DNA from: Myxococcaceae bacterium
Lineage (GTDB): Bacteria > Myxococcota > Myxococcia > Myxococcales > Myxococcaceae
DNA length: 64,000 bases
Direction of reading: 5' to 3'
Assembly (NCBI GenBank): GCA_017881265.1
Contig: JADGRA010000059.1
Coordinates: forward strand, 1-64,000
Below, piece by piece: positions 51,054 through 63,160 of the stretch. The notes below the pieces were generated by a model. The model was not told the DNA's origin and searched no databases. It worked only from the letters and a program-made list of their open reading frames with translations. A program made the translations under genes and the position numbers. The first letter of the stretch is position 1. Each line of letters opens with the position of its first letter.

Positions 51054-51629
51054 CTACCGCTCCGCCGTCTTGGTGCCCTCGGGCTTACTGCCCGAGTCCA
51101 GCACGGCGAAGTTGAGGTTGCCGTAGCCCGCGTTCTGGCAGCTGAACATCACGCGCTTCAGCACCTTGAAGGGGATTTCCTTGTGCCCCTGGATGTTGAC
51201 GTCGCCACTGAAGGCCTGTCCGTCGGCCGCGGCGACGTGCAACTCCTCGGTCTGCTTCTTCTCCTCGCGCAGCCGCTCCTCCAGCGCCGGGATGCTCAGG
51301 TAGTCCTCCCGGGACAGGTCGCTCACCCGGGCCACCGCGACGCCATTCATGATGACGTCGGTGGAGGAAATCATCACCACCGGCGCCAGCTCCAATTCCT
51401 TGATGTGGCTGGCCGACGGCAGCTGCACGTCCTTCGTCATGTTGAGGATTTCGCCTGTCGCCGAGAAGTTGGCGATGAGGAAGAGCACGATGATGACGAA
51501 CATGTCGACCAGCGGCGTGATGAGCAGGTCGGCCGACGTCGACTTCTTGGCGGTCGAGTGGTGGCCGCTGAAGAAGTGCGAGCGCGACAGCCGGGCGCCA
51601 TACCGCTTGCCTGGAACCTGGATGGCCAC
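51054..51629 (-). CDS. ExbD/TolR-family stator protein (second copy; AglS/AglQ-like)
   Basis: 191 residues. A basic cytoplasmic start (about 1-34), one transmembrane helix with the proton-binding Asp42 (TPLVDMFVIIVLFLI), and a periplasmic domain. These features define the H+-driven ExbD/TolR/MotB-like stators. GTG at 51629 lies 13 bases after the first ExbD gene. ExbB plus two ExbDs is the arrangement of the M. xanthus gliding motor (AglR-AglQ-AglS), though generic Tol/TonB energisers can also look like this. Confidence 0.86.
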   Translation of the reverse strand: MAIQVPGKRYGARLSRSHFFSGHHSTAKKSTSADLLITPLVDMFVIIVLFLIANFSATGEILNMTKDVQLPSASHIKELELAPVVMISSTDVIMNGVAVARVSDLSREDYLSIPALEERLREEKKQTEELHVAAADGQAFSGDVNIQGHKEIPFKVLKRVMFSCQNAGYGNLNFAVLDSGSKPEGTKTAER

Positions 51630-51642
51630 GCTTAGCTCGCCC

Positions 51643-52128
51643 TCATGTCGCCACCGGTGAGACGGAGACGGCCGGCAGCCCGTCGCCGATGGCCTCGTCG
51701 ATGACGCGCACCAAGTCCTCGTACCGGACGTCGTCCTCGGTCTGGACGGTAATCGCCGTCTGGTCGGGAATCTGCTCGCGGATTTTCTTCAAGAGCTCCT
51801 GCACCTTCGCCAGCTGAAGCTGGCCCTTCTCGTCGCGCGTGTTGGGGATGGCATCGCCCAGCTGCGCCGAGCCGACCGAGATTTTGATTTCCTTCTCCGC
51901 CAGCAGCAGCGTGATTTGCGGCAGCTTGTCGTCCTTGTCCTGGTTCGGGTCGCTGTCGCCGCCTGAGCTGCTGACTTGAAGCCGGCCAATCTGCGTCCAC
52001 ACCGCCGTCATGATGAGGAAGCTGATGGTCACCGCCATCAGGTCGATGAAGGGCACCAGGTTGATGGTGGCATCCAGGGCCTTCTTCCCGCCCTTGGTAC
52101 TGGTGCCGAGGTCCATTCCTCCGGCCAT
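51643..52128 (-). CDS. ExbD/TolR-family stator protein (first copy)
   Basis: 161 residues. The single helix carries Asp29 (LVPFIDLMAVTISFLIM). The periplasmic part holds the short β-rich ExbD domain (AITVQTEDDVRYEDLVRVIDEA). ATG at 52128 follows GAGGGAG. The two ExbD copies differ strongly in sequence, so the stator is likely heteromeric. It lies 92 bases downstream of the ExbB gene. Confidence 0.86.
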   Translation of the reverse strand: MAGGMDLGTSTKGGKKALDATINLVPFIDLMAVTISFLIMTAVWTQIGRLQVSSSGGDSDPNQDKDDKLPQITLLLAEKEIKISVGSAQLGDAIPNTRDEKGQLQLAKVQELLKKIREQIPDQTAITVQTEDDVRYEDLVRVIDEAIGDGLPAVSVSPVAT

Positions 52129-52220
52129 CGCTGCTCCCTCTTCCTAAGCGTGTCTGAAAAAAGCCGCTGGCTGCCCGGGGGGACGAAGCGTGCCCGGGCA
52201 GCGCGGCGCGAAAAGTCCCG

Positions 52221-52958
52221 TCAAGCCTCGTCGGCGCGTCCTGCGGAGACGGTGGCGTTCTTGAATTTGTCCTTGTTGTTCACCACCAGGTTCAGCACCG
52301 ACACCGACGTCTCGTTGATGTCGTTGATGAGGGACTGGGTGCGCCCGTTGAGGATGGAGAACATCACCAGCGAGGGAATGGCCACCAGAAGGCCGAAGAA
52401 CGTGCAGTTCATCGCCTCGGAGATGCCGGTGGAGAGGATGGTCGCCTTGTCCGCCGCGTTGACGTGGGCCACCGCCTGGAAACAGGTGATGAGGCCGTTC
52501 ACCGTCCCGAGCAGCCCGGCCAGCATCGCCGCGTTGCCCAGCATGGCCAGGTACCCGGTGCGCGCCTCGAGCTTCGGAGTCTCGCGCAGGGCCGCCTCGT
52601 CCAGCGCGGCCTGCACCTCTTCCTCGCCCTTGGGCACGTTCATCAACCCGGACTTCACGACGTTGGTGAGCGGCGTGTTCTTCTGCCCGGCGACGTAGTT
52701 GATCGCCTTGTCCAGGTCACCGTTGTAGATGTACTTCTTCAGTCCGCGCAGGAAGCCGTCCTTGCTGATGGACGCGGAGAAGTAGAGGACGACGACGCGC
52801 TCGACGATGATGGCGAGGGCGACCACGGCGCAGAGCGCGATGGGGTACATCCCGCCCTTGCCAGCACGGAAGCGCTGGGCCAGTTCGTCGAAGGAGAAAC
52901 CCGAGCCGGTACCCTCGGCCGCCAGCAGCATCAACTTGGTGAGCAACCCCGAAGTCAT
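52221..52958 (-). CDS. ExbB/TolQ/MotA-family proton channel protein
   Basis: 245 residues with three transmembrane helices: one early (about 38-60, GGMYPIALCAVVALAIIVE), two later (TGYLAMLGNAAMLAGLLGTVNGLI and FFGLLVAIPSLVMFSILN). The GLLGTVNGLITCF segment is the family signature. It forms the pentamer around the ExbD dimer. ATG at 52958 follows GGAGG by about eight bases. Confidence 0.9.
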   Translation of the reverse strand: MTSGLLTKLMLLAAEGTGSGFSFDELAQRFRAGKGGMYPIALCAVVALAIIVERVVVLYFSASISKDGFLRGLKKYIYNGDLDKAINYVAGQKNTPLTNVVKSGLMNVPKGEEEVQAALDEAALRETPKLEARTGYLAMLGNAAMLAGLLGTVNGLITCFQAVAHVNAADKATILSTGISEAMNCTFFGLLVAIPSLVMFSILNGRTQSLINDINETSVSVLNLVVNNKDKFKNATVSAGRADEA

Positions 52959-53196: not shown

Positions 53197-53901
53197 ATGG
53201 CCCGGAGAAGACTCGGGGAAGTCCTGCTCGCCCGCGGCGCCATCACCAAGGCGCAGCTCGACGACGCTCTGCAGTACGCGCGGCGCACCCGCCAGCGCCT
53301 GGGCGGGGCCCTGGTCCAGAAGGGCCACCTCACCGAGGAAGCCCTCGTCAACGCGCTGTCGGAAAGTCTCGGGCTGGCGGCCGTCGACCTGGAGCGCGTC
53401 TTCGTCGACTGGAATGCCGTGCAGCTGCTGAGCGCCCAGGTGTGCGAGGCCTACGGCCTTTTCCCCTACGCCGTCGAGGCGCTGCACGGCCGCCGCCAGC
53501 TGCTTCTGGCCATGGTGGACCCCCTCAACCTGTCCGCCGTGGAGGAGGTGGAATTCACCGCCGGCCTGCCCGTCTCCGCCCGCCTGGCCCCGCTGGCCGC
53601 GGTGCACGCCGCCATCCTCCGCCACTACCACCAGGTGAACATCCCGGCCGAGGCCCCGGAGGACGAAGTCATCGAGGGGGAGGAGATGGCGCCGCCCCCG
53701 GCCCCGCCGCGCATCGCCCCGGTGGCCGCACTCTCCGCCCAGGGCCAGGTGCACCGGGAGGACTACCCGCCCGACTTCCTGGACGACGGGCTGTCGGACG
53801 AAATCTGGCGCAGACGCTTCTGGGCCCTGGTGCGGCTGCTCGTGCAGAAGGGCGTCGTCACCCAGGCCGAGGTCACCCGCGCGCTGCGGGAGCTGGAGTG
53901 A
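53197..53901 (+). CDS. Stand-alone MshEN (GspE N-terminal) protein, putative c-di-GMP receptor
   Basis: 234 residues. The N-terminal 60 residues carry two MshEN units starting RLGEVLLARG and RLGGALVQKG, spaced as in the c-di-GMP-binding consensus RLGxxLxxxGxIxxxxLxxALxxQ. The terminal Gln is replaced in both, which may weaken binding. The domain continues to about 150. An acidic/Pro linker then leads to a third related helix pair (LVQKGVVTQAEVTRAL) at the C-terminus. There is no ATPase. It is divergent from the ExbB gene and ends 10 bases before the convergent sensor gene. Confidence 0.8.
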   Translation: MARRRLGEVLLARGAITKAQLDDALQYARRTRQRLGGALVQKGHLTEEALVNALSESLGLAAVDLERVFVDWNAVQLLSAQVCEAYGLFPYAVEALHGRRQLLLAMVDPLNLSAVEEVEFTAGLPVSARLAPLAAVHAAILRHYHQVNIPAEAPEDEVIEGEEMAPPPAPPRIAPVAALSAQGQVHREDYPPDFLDDGLSDEIWRRRFWALVRLLVQKGVVTQAEVTRALRELE

Positions 53902-53911
53902 GGGGCCCACC

Positions 53912-56023
53912 TCACGGCAGCTTGGACTTCGTCGCCGCCTCGCCCGCGGCCTTCTCCTGGGCCTCCTCCGTCTCGTCCGAGGTGCGCTCGAGGTCCAGAA
54001 TCTGCGCATCCCCCACGTAACTCTTCAGTTCGAAGCGGGTGATTTTCCCAATCTTCTTCACAATCTCCTTCATCCGCTCGGCCTCACGGAAGATGGTGTC
54101 CACCCGCTTGTAGGCGTCGTCGTCCGTCTTCAGCTTGCGCTTCAGCAGCTCGGCGAAGCCGAGGACCGAGGTGAGGGGCTGGTTCAGCTCATGCGCGGTC
54201 GTCCCGGCCAGCGCCATCAGCACCGCGTTCCGCTTGGACTCCTCCAGGCGCACCTCGGCGTCCGACAGCTTGCGCTCCAGCTGCACCCGGTCGCGCAAGT
54301 CGGTGACGATGGCCACCGTCGCCACCTCGCGCTCTCCCTCGTAGAGGATGGAGGCCGTCATATTGACGGGCACCCGCTCGCCTCCCTGGGTGAGGACCTC
54401 CACCCGGGTGGCCGACAGACGGCCCCGGCCGCCGAATTCATCGCTGCGCAGCCGCTCGATGAGCATCTGCGCGGCGCCCTCGGGGTACAGCTTGCGCAGC
54501 TCCAGGGACGAGAGCGCCTCGGACGCGCTGTACCCGGTGAGGGCCTCCGCCCCGGAGTTGAAGAGAATGATGCGCCCGTTCACGTCGGCGGCGATGATGG
54601 CGTCCACCGAGGAGTCGATGAGCTTCTCCAGAAACTCTTTGGTGTGGCGCAGCTCGTCCGCGATGCGCCGCGGGGCGGTGACGTCGCGGAAGCTGAGGAT
54701 GCTTTTCGCCTCCCCCTCCTGCAGGGCCGCCCCGTTGAAGGACAGCGTCACCGTGCGCCCGGCCGTCGTCTGAACGCTGAGGTCCACCGGATGACGGGGC
54801 CGGCCGCTGGCCACCGCCTCCAGCAGCTCTGAGAGTGCGGCGTCGGCGGCCCCCCGGGTGAGCGCCTGGATGGAGGCGCCCTGCGCCGTAGCGGCTTCCA
54901 CGTCCAGCAGCGCCGCGCCGGCCGGGTTGAGCGAGAGCACCCGGCCCTGGCCGTCCAGCACCGCGATGCCGTCGGAGACGTGGGCGAAGTAGACGGCGAA
55001 GCGCTGCAGGGTGGCCGCCTGCTGCTCGGCCACAATCCGCGCGGCCTTCTCCCGTTCCGTCTGGCCGCGCACCGTCTGCACCAGCTTGGCGTTGCGCAGC
55101 GCCACCGCGGTGGCGTGCGCCACGGTGGCGAGAAACTCCACCTCCCCGGCGCTGAAGGGCGGACGCCGCCCGGAGCCGCGCACCAGGAAGACGCCCGTCA
55201 CCGCCCCGCCCACCACCAGCGGCAGCGCGGCAATGGCGTGCACCCCGGCCGCGCTGACTTGCGGATGCACCCCCTCCAGCAGCGGGTGGCTGGGCGCGTC
55301 TGCCACCGTCACCGGCGCCCCGGTGCGCAGCACCTCCCGCACCTCCGGGTACAACGACAATTCGATGCGCAAGTTCTTCAGCGCCGGGTCGTCGCTCGCC
55401 GCCACCACCACGCCGGCGTCGCCGTCGACGACGATGAGGGAGGCCCGGACGATGTCCAGCGCCTCGGCCAGTTCCCGGGTGACGTCGTGCAGCAGCGCAT
55501 CGACGTCGGCCGTCTCCGCATAGCGCGCGGTCAGTTCCAGCAGGAAGGCCAGGTTGCGCTGGCCCTCGGCGGACCGGCGCTCGGCCGCACGGCGAGTCCT
55601 GGCCTCCGCCACCCGCGCGACCAGTTCCGACTCCACCCGGTCCAGCGCCAGCTGCGCGTCGGCCCCCGGGACGCCGCCCAGTGGCCCGAGCGGGCCGGAC
55701 GGCACCAGCACCACCACCGGGAGCGCCTCGCCGCGGAAGCCCTGGCGCAGCCGCGCCAGCACGTCAGCTCCCCCCGCCTGCCCGAGGTCCACCACCGCCG
55801 CGCCGGCACCGGCGAGCGAGCCGCCCGGTCGCAGCTGCAGCCCGCCCAGGGCGAGCGCTCGGGACACCCGGTCGCGCGCTGGGGACTCCTCCGGAAACAG
55901 CACGACGGCGGCTGGCCCTGGCAGGTGGGGGAGGCGCTCGGAAGCGGGCTCTAGTGCAGGTTCTCGCGGATGCAGAGGATGTTCCCTCGGCGGGGACTGT
56001 AGCGCACCCCCGGGCGGCGACAT
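53912..56023 (-). CDS. GAF-PAS-PAS-HisKA protein lacking an ATPase domain
   Basis: 703 residues. A receiver-like region of about 130 residues lacks a clear phospho-Asp and is followed by a GAF domain (about 180-330), two PAS domains (about 375-490 and 495-615) and a HisKA dimer with candidate His611 in TAHELNQPLTSVLGFAELL. The protein ends about 90 residues later in an acidic tail, so no HATPase_c (N-box, G-boxes) exists. It may receive phosphate from another kinase or act as a scaffold. ATG 56023 lies 27 bases from the divergent GTPase start. Confidence 0.85.
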   Translation of the reverse strand: MSPPGGALQSPPREHPLHPREPALEPASERLPHLPGPAAVVLFPEESPARDRVSRALALGGLQLRPGGSLAGAGAAVVDLGQAGGADVLARLRQGFRGEALPVVVLVPSGPLGPLGGVPGADAQLALDRVESELVARVAEARTRRAAERRSAEGQRNLAFLLELTARYAETADVDALLHDVTRELAEALDIVRASLIVVDGDAGVVVAASDDPALKNLRIELSLYPEVREVLRTGAPVTVADAPSHPLLEGVHPQVSAAGVHAIAALPLVVGGAVTGVFLVRGSGRRPPFSAGEVEFLATVAHATAVALRNAKLVQTVRGQTEREKAARIVAEQQAATLQRFAVYFAHVSDGIAVLDGQGRVLSLNPAGAALLDVEAATAQGASIQALTRGAADAALSELLEAVASGRPRHPVDLSVQTTAGRTVTLSFNGAALQEGEAKSILSFRDVTAPRRIADELRHTKEFLEKLIDSSVDAIIAADVNGRIILFNSGAEALTGYSASEALSSLELRKLYPEGAAQMLIERLRSDEFGGRGRLSATRVEVLTQGGERVPVNMTASILYEGEREVATVAIVTDLRDRVQLERKLSDAEVRLEESKRNAVLMALAGTTAHELNQPLTSVLGFAELLKRKLKTDDDAYKRVDTIFREAERMKEIVKKIGKITRFELKSYVGDAQILDLERTSDETEEAQEKAAGEAATKSKLP

Positions 56024-56050: not shown

Positions 56051-57808
56051 GTGCACCTGCACACCTCCTTGCCACTGCCCGCGGCGCTGGCCGACGCCGC
56101 CGCCGCACTGGACGCGCTCTTGCCCTCCCTCGACGCGGCCGCCGCCCAGCGGGCCCGTCGGCTGGGCGAGCGTCTCCGGCGCGACTTGCTGCCCCGCCTC
56201 GACGCCGAGGCCCCGCTGCTGCTGGCGGCCATTGCCGGCCCCAACAACGTCGGCAAGTCCACCCTCTTCAACGCCCTGGCCGGCGAGCGCCTCTCGCCCG
56301 CGCACCCGGAAGGGGGCCTCACCAAGCAGTGCCTGGCAGTGGCCCACCCGGAGACGGCTTCCGGGCCGGGGCAGCAGGCCCTCGCCCGCCGCTACAGCGT
56401 CGTCCCGGTGGCGGCCGGCGAGACGCCGCCGGTGGACGTGCCCGGCCCCGTCGGACGGCTGTACCTCGCCCAGCCCCGGCAGCTGGCAAAGGGCCTAGTC
56501 CTGCTCGACACGCCGGACCTGGACAGCGTCGTGGCCGACAACCGCGAACGCACGGAGGCCCTCCTCGTCACCGTCGACGTCCTCATCTTCGTCGTCTCGC
56601 GCCACACGTACCAGAATGCCGCCCTGGTGGCCTTCATCCGCGAGGCGGTGGCCCATGGCCGCCCCTGGCTGGTGCTGTACAACGAGGCCCCGGACGCCCG
56701 GCTCGCGGCTGCCCACCTGGACAAACTCACCCGGGACGTGGGCCAGCCGCCGCTGGCGCGCTTCTACAGCCCCCACGACGCCGCGGTGGAGGCGGGCACC
56801 GCCGCCTTGCGGCCACTGCCCCTCGACGGCGGGCCAGCGCTGTCGGCGCTTCTGTCGGACCCGGTGCGGGGCGCCGGCCTGCGCCAGCAGGCCCGGGCCG
56901 CCTCGCTGCAGCAGGCGCAGGCGGAACTGCGTGGCATGCGGGAGGCGGTGCTGGCCGCGGCGGCGGAGCCGGAACGGCTGCGGAGCCGGCTGCGGGATGC
57001 CCTCTTCTCCACCGGTTCCCAGGCCGCCCTGCACGCCGTCCCGGCGGACATTCTGGTGGAAGCCTTTCGGGAGGAACTGGACGCCAGAAGCCGCCTGCAC
57101 CGCTGGGTGCGCACGCCCTTCCGGGGCCTGGCCACGGTAGTGACGGCCCTCGGCCGGCGCATGCGACGTTCCTTCACCGGGGACGCCGGAGCCACCCAGC
57201 TGGACCCGGCCCACACGGTGGACGGCCTGCTGCGGGACGGACTGGGACGGCTGGTGGAGTCCCTGGCGCCGGAGCTGTCTGCCTGGAAAGGGGAGGTGGC
57301 CGGACGGCGCCTGCTGGAGGCCGCCCTGGGCGAGGAGATGCTGCGCGCCCTGCGCACCCCAGGGCCCCTGGTGGCGGACGACGCCCCGGCGGACCGCGAC
57401 GCCCTGAACACCTTCTGCCGCCAGCTGGTGCGCCAGGAATTGCCGGGCGGCCTCGCCGAGGGCGCCCTGCAGACGGTGGCCACCCTCGTCTATTCGGTGC
57501 CCGCCGGCGCGGCCGCCGTGGTGACGGTGGCCTTCGGCGGCATCGGCCAGGACGCCGCGGTGTGGGCCGGCACGCTGCTGTCCACGCCCCTCATGGAGCG
57601 CTTCGTCGACGCGCTGGGGACGGGCATCCGCCGCAACGTCTCGCTGGCCTGGGCCGAAGGGCACGGACGCACGTTGGCCCAGGCCCTGGAAGCGCGCTTC
57701 TTCCGGCCCCTCCTCTCTCACCTCGACGGGCAGGTGGCCGACGCGACGGAAAAGGCCGACCGCCTCGCCCGCGCGGCCGAGGCCATCGCAGCCGAAGGTG
57801 CGGCGTGA
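56051..57808 (+). CDS. Dynamin-like GTPase, first of a coupled pair
   Basis: 585 residues. P-loop GPNNVGKST (63-71), G3 DTPDLD (153-158), and a divergent G4 (YNEAPD). The long helical region after the G domain, with a hydrophobic stretch around 475-500 (SVPAGAAAVVTVAFGGI), fits a bacterial dynamin-like or YjdA/CrfC-like protein. GTG 56051 with GGGGA six bases upstream is preferred over GTG 56039. It is followed by the second GTPase with a GTGA overlap. Confidence 0.82.
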   Translation: MHLHTSLPLPAALADAAAALDALLPSLDAAAAQRARRLGERLRRDLLPRLDAEAPLLLAAIAGPNNVGKSTLFNALAGERLSPAHPEGGLTKQCLAVAHPETASGPGQQALARRYSVVPVAAGETPPVDVPGPVGRLYLAQPRQLAKGLVLLDTPDLDSVVADNRERTEALLVTVDVLIFVVSRHTYQNAALVAFIREAVAHGRPWLVLYNEAPDARLAAAHLDKLTRDVGQPPLARFYSPHDAAVEAGTAALRPLPLDGGPALSALLSDPVRGAGLRQQARAASLQQAQAELRGMREAVLAAAAEPERLRSRLRDALFSTGSQAALHAVPADILVEAFREELDARSRLHRWVRTPFRGLATVVTALGRRMRRSFTGDAGATQLDPAHTVDGLLRDGLGRLVESLAPELSAWKGEVAGRRLLEAALGEEMLRALRTPGPLVADDAPADRDALNTFCRQLVRQELPGGLAEGALQTVATLVYSVPAGAAAVVTVAFGGIGQDAAVWAGTLLSTPLMERFVDALGTGIRRNVSLAWAEGHGRTLAQALEARFFRPLLSHLDGQVADATEKADRLARAAEAIAAEGAA

Positions 57809-59529
57809 AACCAGAAAACGTCCCTTCGCTTCTGGAAACGGCCCTGGCCCTGCCCGGCCTGTCGGCCGAAGCCGAGGCCCTGCGTCCGTTGGCCCGGGAC
57901 GTGGCGCGCACGCGCGCGCTGGGGGCGCGCCCGCTGCGCGTCGCCCTGGTGGGCAGCACCGGGGCGGGCAAGTCCACCCTCCTCAACGCCCTGGCCGGGG
58001 CACCGCTGGCCGAGGAGGGCACCACCCGCCCCACCAGCCGCCAGGCGGTGGCCTACGCCCCCCATGGCGCGGACCTCGGCCGGCTGCAGCAGGTGGTGGG
58101 CCAGGTGGTGCGCTACACGCCGCAGGAGGGCGGACGGTGGACGGGCCAAGTCCTGGTGGACACGCCGGACTTGAATAGCGTCGCCGTGGAGAATCGCGAC
58201 CGGGCCCTGGACGTGCTGGCCGAGTGTGACGTGGCAGTGGTGGTGCTGCACCGGGGCAGCGTGGCCGAGGCCCGCCCCAACCAGGCGCTGCAGCCCTTCG
58301 CGCGCCGGCGTGCCCTCCTCCTCGTCCTCAACCACGCAGACCAGCTGGGCGCCCAAGCGCGCGCCACCCTCTCCGCCCAGGCCGCCCGGGTGGCGGTGGA
58401 GGCCCTGGGGGCAGCGACGCCGCCCCCCGTCTTCGTGGTGAGCGCCGCCCGGGCCCGCGGCGGCCAGCCAGGGGACGACTGGGAAGCCCTGGTGGCGGCG
58501 CTGCGCCGCTTCGCGGAGGAGGCGGTGGCGGCACAGGTGCGCGGCGACAACAGCGCCCGGGGCCTGGCCGAGCTGCAGCAGCGCGTCGCCCAGGGGCTGG
58601 ACGCCACCCGCGCCCTCGAAGCCACCGTCCAGGCGGCCCTCACCCAGGGCCTGGACACGGCCCGGCCGGCCCTGGCGCAGGATTTCGACGTGCGCCTTCA
58701 GGCCGCCGCCGCCCAGCTGCAGGCCGCGGTGCGCCGCGCGGCGGCGGCCCGCCTCTCCGGCCCGGCCGCCTGGGGCTTACGGCTGTCGGCCTGGAGTGGC
58801 GGCGGACTCCTCGGCGGCACGCTGCTCGCCCGCGCCAGCCTCCCGGCCGGCCTGCTGGTGGCCGCCACCGGGGCGGTGCTGGACTCCGTCCAGGCACGCA
58901 CCCGGGCCCGCGCCACGGCGGAACGCATGTCGGGCGGGGGCGAGCCACTGCTGGAAGCCGAGGCCCGGGCCGCCCTCACTCCCGCCCGCGCCGCGGCCCA
59001 GCGCCAGGGCGTCGAGCCGGCAGTGTTGGGGCTGCCGACGCCCGAGGCGTGGGCTGCCACGCTGGAACGCACCCGCGCCGCCGCGTGGCGGGACGTGGAG
59101 GGATTCGGGGTGGAACAGGCGGTGGCCCGGTGGTGGCGCTGGGCGCGCGTGCTTCTTGTCCCGGTGGTGCAGCTGCCGCTGCTGGTGCTGTTGGGGGACG
59201 TGGCCTTTCGCACGCTGCGGGCCTATCTCCTCGGGCCCCTGCTGGACGTCCGCTACTACGTGAATGCGGCCGCCCTGGCGCTGGTGTGGACGGCGGCCGG
59301 TACGCTGCTGGCGGGGCTTTCCCTCGCCGGCGTGGCCACCCGGGCGCGACGCCGGGGCGCCCAGCGCTTCGCCGAGGGCCTGGCCGCGGCGGAGGCCTCC
59401 CTGCAGGCGGAAGTGCACGGGGCCCTCGCCCTCCCCCTGGCCGCGGCGGAGACGCTGTTGGCCGAAGGCACCGCCGTGCAGGCGGGGGCCGTCAGCCAGC
59501 CCGCAGCAGGCGCCGTAGCCGCGCCGTGA
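57805..59529 (+). CDS. Dynamin-like GTPase with membrane helices, second of the pair
   Basis: 574 residues. P-loop GSTGAGKST (50-58), G3 DTPDLN (119-124) and G4 NHAD (176-179) form a complete G domain. Helical arms follow, with hydrophobic segments near 330-352, 448-468 and 480-505 (VLLVPVVQLPLLVLLGDV; NAAALALVWTAAGTLLAGL), so it is likely membrane-inserted. The layout resembles dynamin-like pairs such as IniA/IniC, LeoA-B-C or DynA/B. GTG 57805 overlaps the first GTPase's stop. Likely partners in membrane remodelling or stress protection. Confidence 0.84.
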   Translation: MKPENVPSLLETALALPGLSAEAEALRPLARDVARTRALGARPLRVALVGSTGAGKSTLLNALAGAPLAEEGTTRPTSRQAVAYAPHGADLGRLQQVVGQVVRYTPQEGGRWTGQVLVDTPDLNSVAVENRDRALDVLAECDVAVVVLHRGSVAEARPNQALQPFARRRALLLVLNHADQLGAQARATLSAQAARVAVEALGAATPPPVFVVSAARARGGQPGDDWEALVAALRRFAEEAVAAQVRGDNSARGLAELQQRVAQGLDATRALEATVQAALTQGLDTARPALAQDFDVRLQAAAAQLQAAVRRAAAARLSGPAAWGLRLSAWSGGGLLGGTLLARASLPAGLLVAATGAVLDSVQARTRARATAERMSGGGEPLLEAEARAALTPARAAAQRQGVEPAVLGLPTPEAWAATLERTRAAAWRDVEGFGVEQAVARWWRWARVLLVPVVQLPLLVLLGDVAFRTLRAYLLGPLLDVRYYVNAAALALVWTAAGTLLAGLSLAGVATRARRRGAQRFAEGLAAAEASLQAEVHGALALPLAAAETLLAEGTAVQAGAVSQPAAGAVAAP

Positions 59530-59791: not shown

Positions 59792-60199
59792 TCAGCGCCG
59801 CTGGCGGGCGGTATACAGCCGGCTGCGCTCGCGCTGCACTGCCGCGGCGGCGGCCGGCAGGCCCGGGTCTCCCGGGCCGAGGGCCGCATAGCGCTGTTCT
59901 GCCTCCCGCAGCCGCGCGCTGGCCCCCTCGACGTCCAGCGAGGCGAGCGGCTCGGCATGGTCCGCCAGCACCCGCACCGTGTCCTCGGCCACCTCGAAGA
60001 AGCCCCCGGCGACGAACCAGGCTTCGGTTTGCGACGCCGTTCGCACCGTCAGCGGCCCGGCGGCCAGCACGCCGAGGAAGGCACTGTGGCCGGGCAGCAC
60101 CCCGTACAGGCCCTCGGAGGCCGGAGCCACCACCTCGTCGGCTGTCAGCTGCGCCACCCGCCGTTCCGGGGTGACGATTTCCACGTTGAGCTTTGCCAT
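59792..60199 (-). CDS. atpC: ATP synthase F1 epsilon subunit
   Basis: 135 residues. The beta-sandwich start VEIVTPERRV, GVLPGHSAFLGVL and the C-terminal helical part identify it. It couples the rotor stalk and inhibits ATPase activity. ATG 60199 follows a GAAGGAAGGG tract. Separated from atpD by an extra exported-protein gene, which is unusual. Confidence 0.93.
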   Translation of the reverse strand: MAKLNVEIVTPERRVAQLTADEVVAPASEGLYGVLPGHSAFLGVLAAGPLTVRTASQTEAWFVAGGFFEVAEDTVRVLADHAEPLASLDVEGASARLREAEQRYAALGPGDPGLPAAAAAVQRERSRLYTARQRR

Positions 60200-60216
60200 C
60201 GCCAGTGTCCCTTCCT

Positions 60217-60771
60217 TCAGAAGTCCAGCCGGAACTGCTTCGGCTCCACCGTCTCGAATTCCACCTGGTTGGCCTCGGTGATGCGAGGGCGGCGTCCGGG
60301 CACGCCCACCACGCCTTCCAGCCAGCTGAAGCGCGCGTCCAGGTCTCTCAGCTTGTCGAAGCGCCGGGCCATGAAGTCGTGCAGCGTGCGCTCGGTCAGC
60401 ACCCGGCCCTGCCGGTCGAATAGCGTCGCCACCACCGCGCGCACGTACGGCTCGCCGGGCGGCGGCGTCTGGGGCTTGGCGGCCTTCGGCTTCGGCCGCG
60501 GCGGAGGCATCCGGGGCAGCACCGTCAGCACCCAGAAGTGCTCGCCGTCGTTGCTGATGAAGAAGAGGTCATCCACCGCCCCCACGCACCGTTCGAGACT
60601 CCAGGCCGGGTCGGCGTCGCGCGTCGCCTCGACGCGGCAGTGTTCCGGCGCGCTCTCCACCAGCTGGATGCTCCACACCCCGTTGGAGGAGGCACGCGCG
60701 CTGCTCTGCCTGGGCGCCGCCACTACCAGCGCCGGCAGAGCGAGCAGCGGTGCCAGCGCGCGAATGTCCAA
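60217..60771 (-). CDS. Exported protein of unknown function between atpD and atpC
   Basis: 184 residues from TTG 60771, with GAAGGG nine bases upstream. Residues 1-18 are a signal peptide (IRALAPLLALPALVVAA). The mature part has two Cys (near 45 and 62) that may pair, an SNDGEHFWVLTVLP beta pattern and a Lys/Pro-rich linker. It starts 35 bases after atpD and ends 17 bases before atpC. No family recognised. Confidence 0.78.
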   Translation of the reverse strand: MDIRALAPLLALPALVVAAPRQSSARASSNGVWSIQLVESAPEHCRVEATRDADPAWSLERCVGAVDDLFFISNDGEHFWVLTVLPRMPPPRPKPKAAKPQTPPPGEPYVRAVVATLFDRQGRVLTERTLHDFMARRFDKLRDLDARFSWLEGVVGVPGRRPRITEANQVEFETVEPKQFRLDF

Positions 60772-60806
60772 GCGTCGAACCCTTCGGTGGTTTGGGGGCG
60801 GCGCCG

Positions 60807-62252
<1,446 letters not shown>

Positions 62253-62269
62253 CTAGGGCTTTCCTTTTG

Positions 62270-63160
62270 CTATTTCAGCGCCTCGGCGCCGGAGACGATC
62301 TCCATCAACTCCTTGGTGATCGCCGCCTGCCGGGTGCGGTTGTAGAGGAGAGACAGCCGGTCGATGGCGTCGTCGGCGTTGTTGGTGGCGCTGTCCATGG
62401 CCGCCATCCGGGCGGCGTGCTCGGAGGCCACCGACTCGAGCAGCCCGTGCCAGATGCGCAAGGACCAGACGTGGGGCAAGAGCTGCTCCAGCACCTGCTC
62501 CGCGCTCGGCTCGTACTCGAAGTCGGAGAGCATGCGCTTCTCTGGCTCCGGCGGCCGCTCGACGCTCTCCAGCACCAATTCCTGGAGCGGGAGGATGCGG
62601 GTGAACTCCACCCGCTGGCTGATGGCGGAAATGAAGGTGTTGAAGGAGACGTAGACCTCGTCCACCCGGCCGGAGAGAAACTCCTCCGAGACCTCGCGGG
62701 CGAGCTCCGCGGCGGCCTGGTAGTTGAGCTTTCCGAGCAGACCCTGGTGGTCCTTGCGGATGGTCACCCCGCGGCGCCGGAAGAACTCGAAGCCCTTGCG
62801 GCCCACGGTGGTGAGCTGGACGGACTCGTAGGACGAGCCCTTCTCGTAAAGAAAACGCGTGACGCGCCGCAGGACGTTGGAGTTGAAGGCGCCGGCCAAT
62901 CCTCGGTCCGAGGTGAAGACCAGCACTTCGGCCCGCTTCGGCTGGGCCCGCGGGGTGAGCAGTGCGTGGGTGACTTCACCGTGCCGGCGCGCGACGTCGC
63001 GAAGCACCTGCTCCAGCGCGGCGGAGTAGGGCCTGGTGGCCAGAAGCGCCTCCTGGGCCCGCCGCAGCTTGGCCGCAGAAACCATCTTCATCGCCTTGGT
63101 AATCTGCTGCGTGCTCTTGAAGGAGCGAACGCGCTTGCGGATGTCGCGGAGGCTGGCCAT
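62270..63160 (-). CDS. atpG: ATP synthase F1 gamma subunit
   Basis: 296 residues. Start signature RDIRKRVRSFKSTQQITKAMKMVSAAKLRRAQ and the C-terminal NRTRQAAITKELMEIVSGAEAL form the rotor coiled coil, with the SDRGLAGAFN motif between. ATG 63160. The expected upstream atpA and atpH are absent; the upstream neighbour is a divergent SanA-like gene, so the operon starts at atpG. Confidence 0.95.
   Translation of the reverse strand: MASLRDIRKRVRSFKSTQQITKAMKMVSAAKLRRAQEALLATRPYSAALEQVLRDVARRHGEVTHALLTPRAQPKRAEVLVFTSDRGLAGAFNSNVLRRVTRFLYEKGSSYESVQLTTVGRKGFEFFRRRGVTIRKDHQGLLGKLNYQAAAELAREVSEEFLSGRVDEVYVSFNTFISAISQRVEFTRILPLQELVLESVERPPEPEKRMLSDFEYEPSAEQVLEQLLPHVWSLRIWHGLLESVASEHAARMAAMDSATNNADDAIDRLSLLYNRTRQAAITKELMEIVSGAEALK

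Follow-up and report, generated by a model that had tools for sequence, protein, structure and literature searches.

The GTPase gene pair

The window, a stretch of 64,000 nucleotides from a Myxococcaceae assembly (4.4 Mb in 81 contigs), carries two GTPase genes, here called A and B, which lie head to tail and overlap by four bases (Table 1). Both open reading frames encode a P-loop and a DTPD motif, in agreement with an earlier reading of the DNA from its letters alone (the sequence-only reading). A Shine-Dalgarno-like GAGGTGGGG precedes the GTG start of A (56051) by about 8-10 bases, and B starts at the GTG (57805) within the GTGA overlap, with GAAGGT upstream. The 4-base overlap is found again in two related genomes (G006 and G026). 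The Pfam domain Dynamin_N scores above its gathering threshold in A (5.1e-7) and in B (5.9e-8), and MMR_HSR1 likewise exceeds the Pfam cut-off in both proteins.

The two proteins differ in the G4 motif and at the C-terminus. The degenerate G4 of A and the NHAD and membrane helices of B had been noted in the sequence-only reading and are conserved across orthologues. Residues 445-512 of B, which include two strong hydrophobic segments, correspond to a membrane-binding paddle or hairpin that is seen in B only; A has a single weak hydrophobic segment (residues 475-498) and no clear hairpin. A is probably a soluble or peripheral subunit with a regulatory or co-assembling function. Convergent with B lie F0F1 ATP synthase genes (epsilon, a gene at 60217-60723, beta and gamma; 59792-63160, minus strand), and the same block is located downstream of B in several genera.

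Table 1. Coordinates of the two GTPase genes, their motifs and the divergent neighbour (positions in the window)
Feature	Position	Strand	Evidence or conservation
Gene A, 585-aa dynamin-like GTPase without G4 Asp	56051..57808	+	Pfam, motif alignment, model
Gene B, 574-aa dynamin-like GTPase, complete G1/G3/G4, C-terminal membrane hairpin	57805..59529	+	
GTGA overlap between the stop of A and the start of B	57805..57808	+	
A, G1 P-loop GPNNVGKS	56237..56260	+	invariant, 15/15 aligned orthologues
A, G3 DTPD	56507..56518	+	invariant
A, G4 position, YNE replacing N/T-K-x-D	56678..56686	+	invariant, 15/15 aligned orthologues
B, G1 P-loop GSTGAGKS	57952..57975	+	
B, G3 DTPD	58159..58170	+	
B, G4 NHAD	58330..58341	+	N-x-A-D in 16/16 orthologues
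B, hydrophobic segment 1 (residues 445-471)	59137..59217	+	strong
B, hydrophobic segment 2 (residues 482-512)	59248..59340	+	strong
Neighbour outside the system, GAF-PAS-PAS-HisKA protein without HATPase	53912..55903 (or start 56023)	-	

Predicted folds of A and B

The AlphaFold2 model of B, built from 7 sequences, reaches a mean pLDDT of 80.3 and a pTM of 0.69. It places a G domain at residues ~40-236, followed by a helix of 62 residues (239-300) and two long helices (413-476 and 482-539). In Foldseek, the best match of B is BDLP (2j68, E 2e-10), followed by IniA (6j72, 5e-8) and mitofusins. The alignment with mitofusin-1 (5yew; VIA-align) yields a Z score of 22.1 over 292 residues at an rmsd of 3.1 and covers both ends of the model. 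Moreover, the mitofusin-1 and Fzo1 matches extend over residues 1-565 including the neck helices (Z 20-22).

The model of A is of low confidence (pLDDT 51.8), with only 4 alignable sequences behind it. Prediction is best for the N-terminal helices, the helix after the G domain and the C-terminal helix, which are the parts that form the neck of dynamins. With the same low-confidence model, Foldseek ranks the Campylobacter DLP pair and IniA on top, and the alignment with Fzo1 (9kfd) gives a Z score of 16.9 over 295 residues. The neck of A appears to be arranged as in B (Z 16-17 on this model), and the neck is firm for B only. Hence, a dynamin-like fold with neck and trunk helices, as proposed from the sequence, is predicted for B and probable for A, and the predicted folds of both place them in the mitofusin/Fzo1/BDLP class; the trunk of A is not established because its model is of low confidence. 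Sequence and profile searches of the PDB with A and B returned generic P-loop matches only (Der, Era and ABC proteins).

Distribution and separation of the pair in Myxococcota

We surveyed 195 Myxococcota genomes, in which each positive genome has one A locus and one B locus with a full orthologue. An extra match to the B profile in one genome (G061) carries a DTPG motif and, being another GTPase, was left out. A and B are present in exactly the same 69 genomes, all of them Myxococcaceae, including relatives of the genera Corallococcus, Pyxidicoccus, Citreicoccus and Hyalangium; no orthologue of either was found in the remaining 126 Myxococcota genomes. Many Myxococcaceae genomes are without the pair, and a clean "empty site" was not found in them, their flanks being different. 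A search of whole genomes for Dynamin_N with a cut-off of E 1e-6 failed to recover even A and B and is thus uninformative on the number of dynamins per genome.

The two genes lie on one contig in 58 genomes and on separate contigs in 11. They share a strand, with A first, in all 58 same-contig genomes. Only the genome studied here (G000), G006, G026 and G012 have the two genes side by side; in the other 54 the distance is 10.7-47.1 kb (median 19.5 kb). Given this spacing together with the constant strand and order, the pair is maintained even where it does not form an operon. The intervening DNA differs by genus and includes, for example, OmpA-family, lipase maturation factor, Ig-like-domain and genus-specific genes. 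At several main-clade loci (among them L038/L074 in G022 and L039/L078/L079 in G027), the interval resembles an insertion hot spot that splits an ancestral operon.

In two small trees, the genomes with adjacent A and B branch first within Myxococcaceae. Since the actinobacterial relatives described below are adjacent as well, the split is probably derived, through insertion into an ancestral operon. Both genes were kept after their separation, which argues that A and B work together. The strict co-occurrence could in part reflect shared descent within one clade.

A tandem pair of the same type in Actinobacteria

Tandem GTPase genes are also found at distant loci in Acidimicrobiia (L153) and Streptosporangiaceae (L154). 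A class search identified the tandem pair in 14 of 14 actinobacterial loci with sufficient flank. Of 198 Actinomycetota genomes, 38 have genes of this kind that the A profile matches. One Acidimicrobiia genome (G196) has two separate tandem pairs of the A/B type (L153/L216 and L215), and both GTPases of L216 are short (~370-400 aa).

Profile comparison relates A to the first actinobacterial member (E 1.8e-30 over 493 columns) more closely than to the second (5e-22), and B to the second member (2.3e-26) more closely than to the first (1.8e-23), whereas A and B match each other at 2e-17 only. The C-termini without the G domain follow the same assignment, with P values of 0.0015 for A and the first member and 0.0012 for B and the second member, as opposed to 0.09 to 0.47 for mismatched pairs. 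In a tree of the G domains, A groups with the first and B with the second members (FastTree support 0.97; UFBoot 82, which is moderate). The G4 Asp is absent in all 30 A and first-member sequences and present in all 32 B and second-member sequences, and a strong two-segment C-terminal hairpin is confined to B and the actinobacterial second members. Judged by these sequence comparisons, A and B are orthologous to the actinobacterial tandem pair in gene order and subunit type. The sequence-only reading of the locus as a heteromer-type gene pair is supported.

The divergent sensor gene

The gene upstream of A, on the opposite strand, encodes a sensor in which Pfam detects GAF, two PAS and HisKA domains and no HATPase, as had been read from the sequence. 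The gap of 27 bases to A that had been given for it holds if the sensor starts at the ATG at 56023; if it starts at the GTG at 55903, which fits the orthologues best, the gap is ~147 bases. Four relatives have an orthologue of about the same length in the vicinity of A. The loss of the HATPase domain through a frameshift in this genome was considered and rejected: all five sensor orthologues located close to A stop at the same point, and the next gene in the relatives is a separate full kinase, the orthologue of which is absent here. In addition, no HATPase match was found in an overlapping frame below the sensor, the stop codon of which lies 10 bases from an MshEN-domain gene (53197-53901, plus strand). 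Further along lies an ExbB/TolQ-like gene with two ExbD/TolR-like genes behind it (51054-52958, minus strand), a group that is conserved beside the sensor in several relatives.

The usual head-to-tail neighbour of the sensor is a full-length histidine kinase of ~645 aa. G000, G006 and G026 yielded no orthologue of this kinase; the best matches there are generic kinases with mostly 33-37% identity. The sensor seems, from these sequence searches, to have lost its usual partner kinase in these three genomes.

Proposed mechanism and alternative readings

We consider it likely that A and B together make up a heteromeric machine of the dynamin-like kind, as its two subunits, with a fold of the mitofusin/BDLP class. 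In such a machine, the C-terminal hairpin of B would anchor it in the inner membrane, and B, having complete G1-G4 motifs and long neck and trunk helices, would act as the GTP-specific motor that turns over GTP. A, which has no hairpin, would bind Mg-nucleotide via its intact P-loop and G3 without a guanine-selecting Asp, and might join B by contacts of the G domains and necks to regulate or complete B oligomers. A GTP-driven conformational change would then bend, tether or stabilise the inner membrane. By analogy with Streptomyces DynA/DynB, the leading candidate for the site of action is the constricting septum, a placement that we offer tentatively and with more doubt than conviction.

The main rival keeps the heteromeric pair and assigns it to envelope stress or membrane repair instead of division, as others have suggested for IniA/IniC, for Bacillus DynA and for the Campylobacter pair; we give it serious weight, if somewhat under an even chance. 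IniA and the Campylobacter pair are among the best Foldseek matches of both models, and A resembles IniA in having one hydrophobic stretch (PMC6715688). Furthermore, as many genomes of the family are without the pair, A and B are not a core division factor of Myxococcaceae. On the other hand, the subunit types, gene order and hairpin are those of the actinobacterial pair, and the pair is always kept in its clade, unlike typical accessory stress genes. That A and B are instead TRAFAC GTPases of the septin/IRG or Era/Der-like signalling type, which do not remodel membranes, appears improbable. Such a type would account for the MMR_HSR1 scores of both proteins and for the Der, Era and ABC proteins in the PDB searches, although these share the P-loop only, but the mitofusin and Fzo1 matches cover the N-terminal helix, the G domain and the C-terminal helix and lie well above plain G-domain matches.

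A different grouping would join A, B and the ATPase-less sensor in one regulated module. The divergent orientation is retained in several genera and the sensor adjoins A in G000, G006 and G026, but in most genomes the two are ~6 to 34 kb apart (~11 to 34 kb in the main clade, where they are still divergent), and in G012 they are on different contigs. The sensor occurs in 39 of 60 genomes at E 1e-60, including other families and genomes without A and B; it is a single-copy gene in most Myxococcaceae, again including those without the pair, and has its own partner kinase. Because its distribution is independent of A and B, the module was rejected and is very improbable. Regulation shared with the sensor, which had been suggested from the short gap, does not stand as a conserved property for the same reasons, namely the occurrence of the sensor without A and B, its kinase neighbour and its distance of mostly kilobases from A. 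In this genome shared regulation is possible; no consensus promoters were found in the divergent gap.

Returning to the heteromeric machine, few dynamins are known from bacteria and little is understood of them, and the papers searched contain no account of a myxobacterial dynamin. The consistent absence of the G4 Asp from one of the subunits, in both phyla, points to an inherent split between motor and regulator, which bears on how heteromeric dynamins and mitofusin pairs share work. We cautiously propose, at less than even odds, an ancient design common to Actinobacteria and a Myxococcaceae clade, in which a GTP-specific membrane motor is joined by a partner that has lost the guanine-selecting Asp for good. 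The myxobacteria may now use it in division or membrane integrity, with both halves retained although the operon is broken in most species. The myxobacteria perhaps gained it horizontally, since the other 126 Myxococcota genomes contain no orthologue. While the layout alone is unsurprising, the retention of the pair without an operon and the motor/partner split in two phyla are worth testing, and they are testable because A and B occur in clades with culturable genera (the four named above).

Comparison with known dynamin-like systems

The actinobacterial tandem pair (L154 of Streptosporangiaceae, L202-L216) is the closest counterpart, with the order and division of labour of A and B, an N-x-x-D motif in the second member and overlapping genes in L154. 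It differs in that its identity to myxobacterial A and B is ~26-27% only and in that the operon is split by 10-47 kb in most Myxococcaceae. This pair probably corresponds to Streptomyces DynA/DynB, which it resembles by description (gene order and membrane segments). DynA/DynB are probably the best-studied relative of A and B, matched by description and not by named sequences; a look-up of plasmid records for a DynA annotation gave a single Nonomuraea match, which is unannotated. In Streptomyces, dynA and dynB are consecutive genes (vnz_12110 and vnz_12105), with dynA preceding dynB (PMC6428758). The DynB protein contains a pair of membrane segments and is a binding partner of DynA (PMC8748795). 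According to a summary of earlier work, the two proteins stabilise FtsZ rings during sporulation (PMC6428758, citing Schlimpert 2017).

Campylobacter Cj-DLP1/Cj-DLP2 (5owv and 5oxf) share with A and B the heterotypic composition, the adjacent genes and the dynamin fold, and are the best Foldseek match of A; as a difference, the assembly domain of Cj-DLP1 has been described as Campylobacter-specific (PMC6104087), and no close sequence similarity to the Campylobacter DLPs was seen. Mycobacterial IniA/IniC are likewise encoded by tandem dynamin-like genes, and the IniA structure matches both models. The match to IniA is by structure only, with no sequence match in the PDB profile searches with A and B, and the neighbouring genes that we inspected showed nothing like iniB. 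The ETEC system LeoA/LeoBC also consists of tandem dynamin-like genes, and LeoA (4aur) is among the structural matches of B, but A and B are not arranged in three ORFs and the sequence similarity is limited to the P-loop level. An anti-phage assignment was rejected, the PADLOC matches to LeoA/LeoBC being weak and mostly to the P-loop. Nostoc BDLP1 and the mitofusins share the fold class, with a neck plus a hairpin or paddle, yet are remote (~12-14% identity).

Most bacterial dynamins occur as side-by-side gene pairs (PMC6104087, PMC4159319), and the paired layout of A and B is therefore expected in itself. The statement of the sequence-only reading that no described system has this combination was too strong, as bacterial dynamin genes come in pairs as a rule and an asymmetric pair like A and B exists in Actinobacteria. 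A and B are a further case of the known paired-dynamin design and not a new system.
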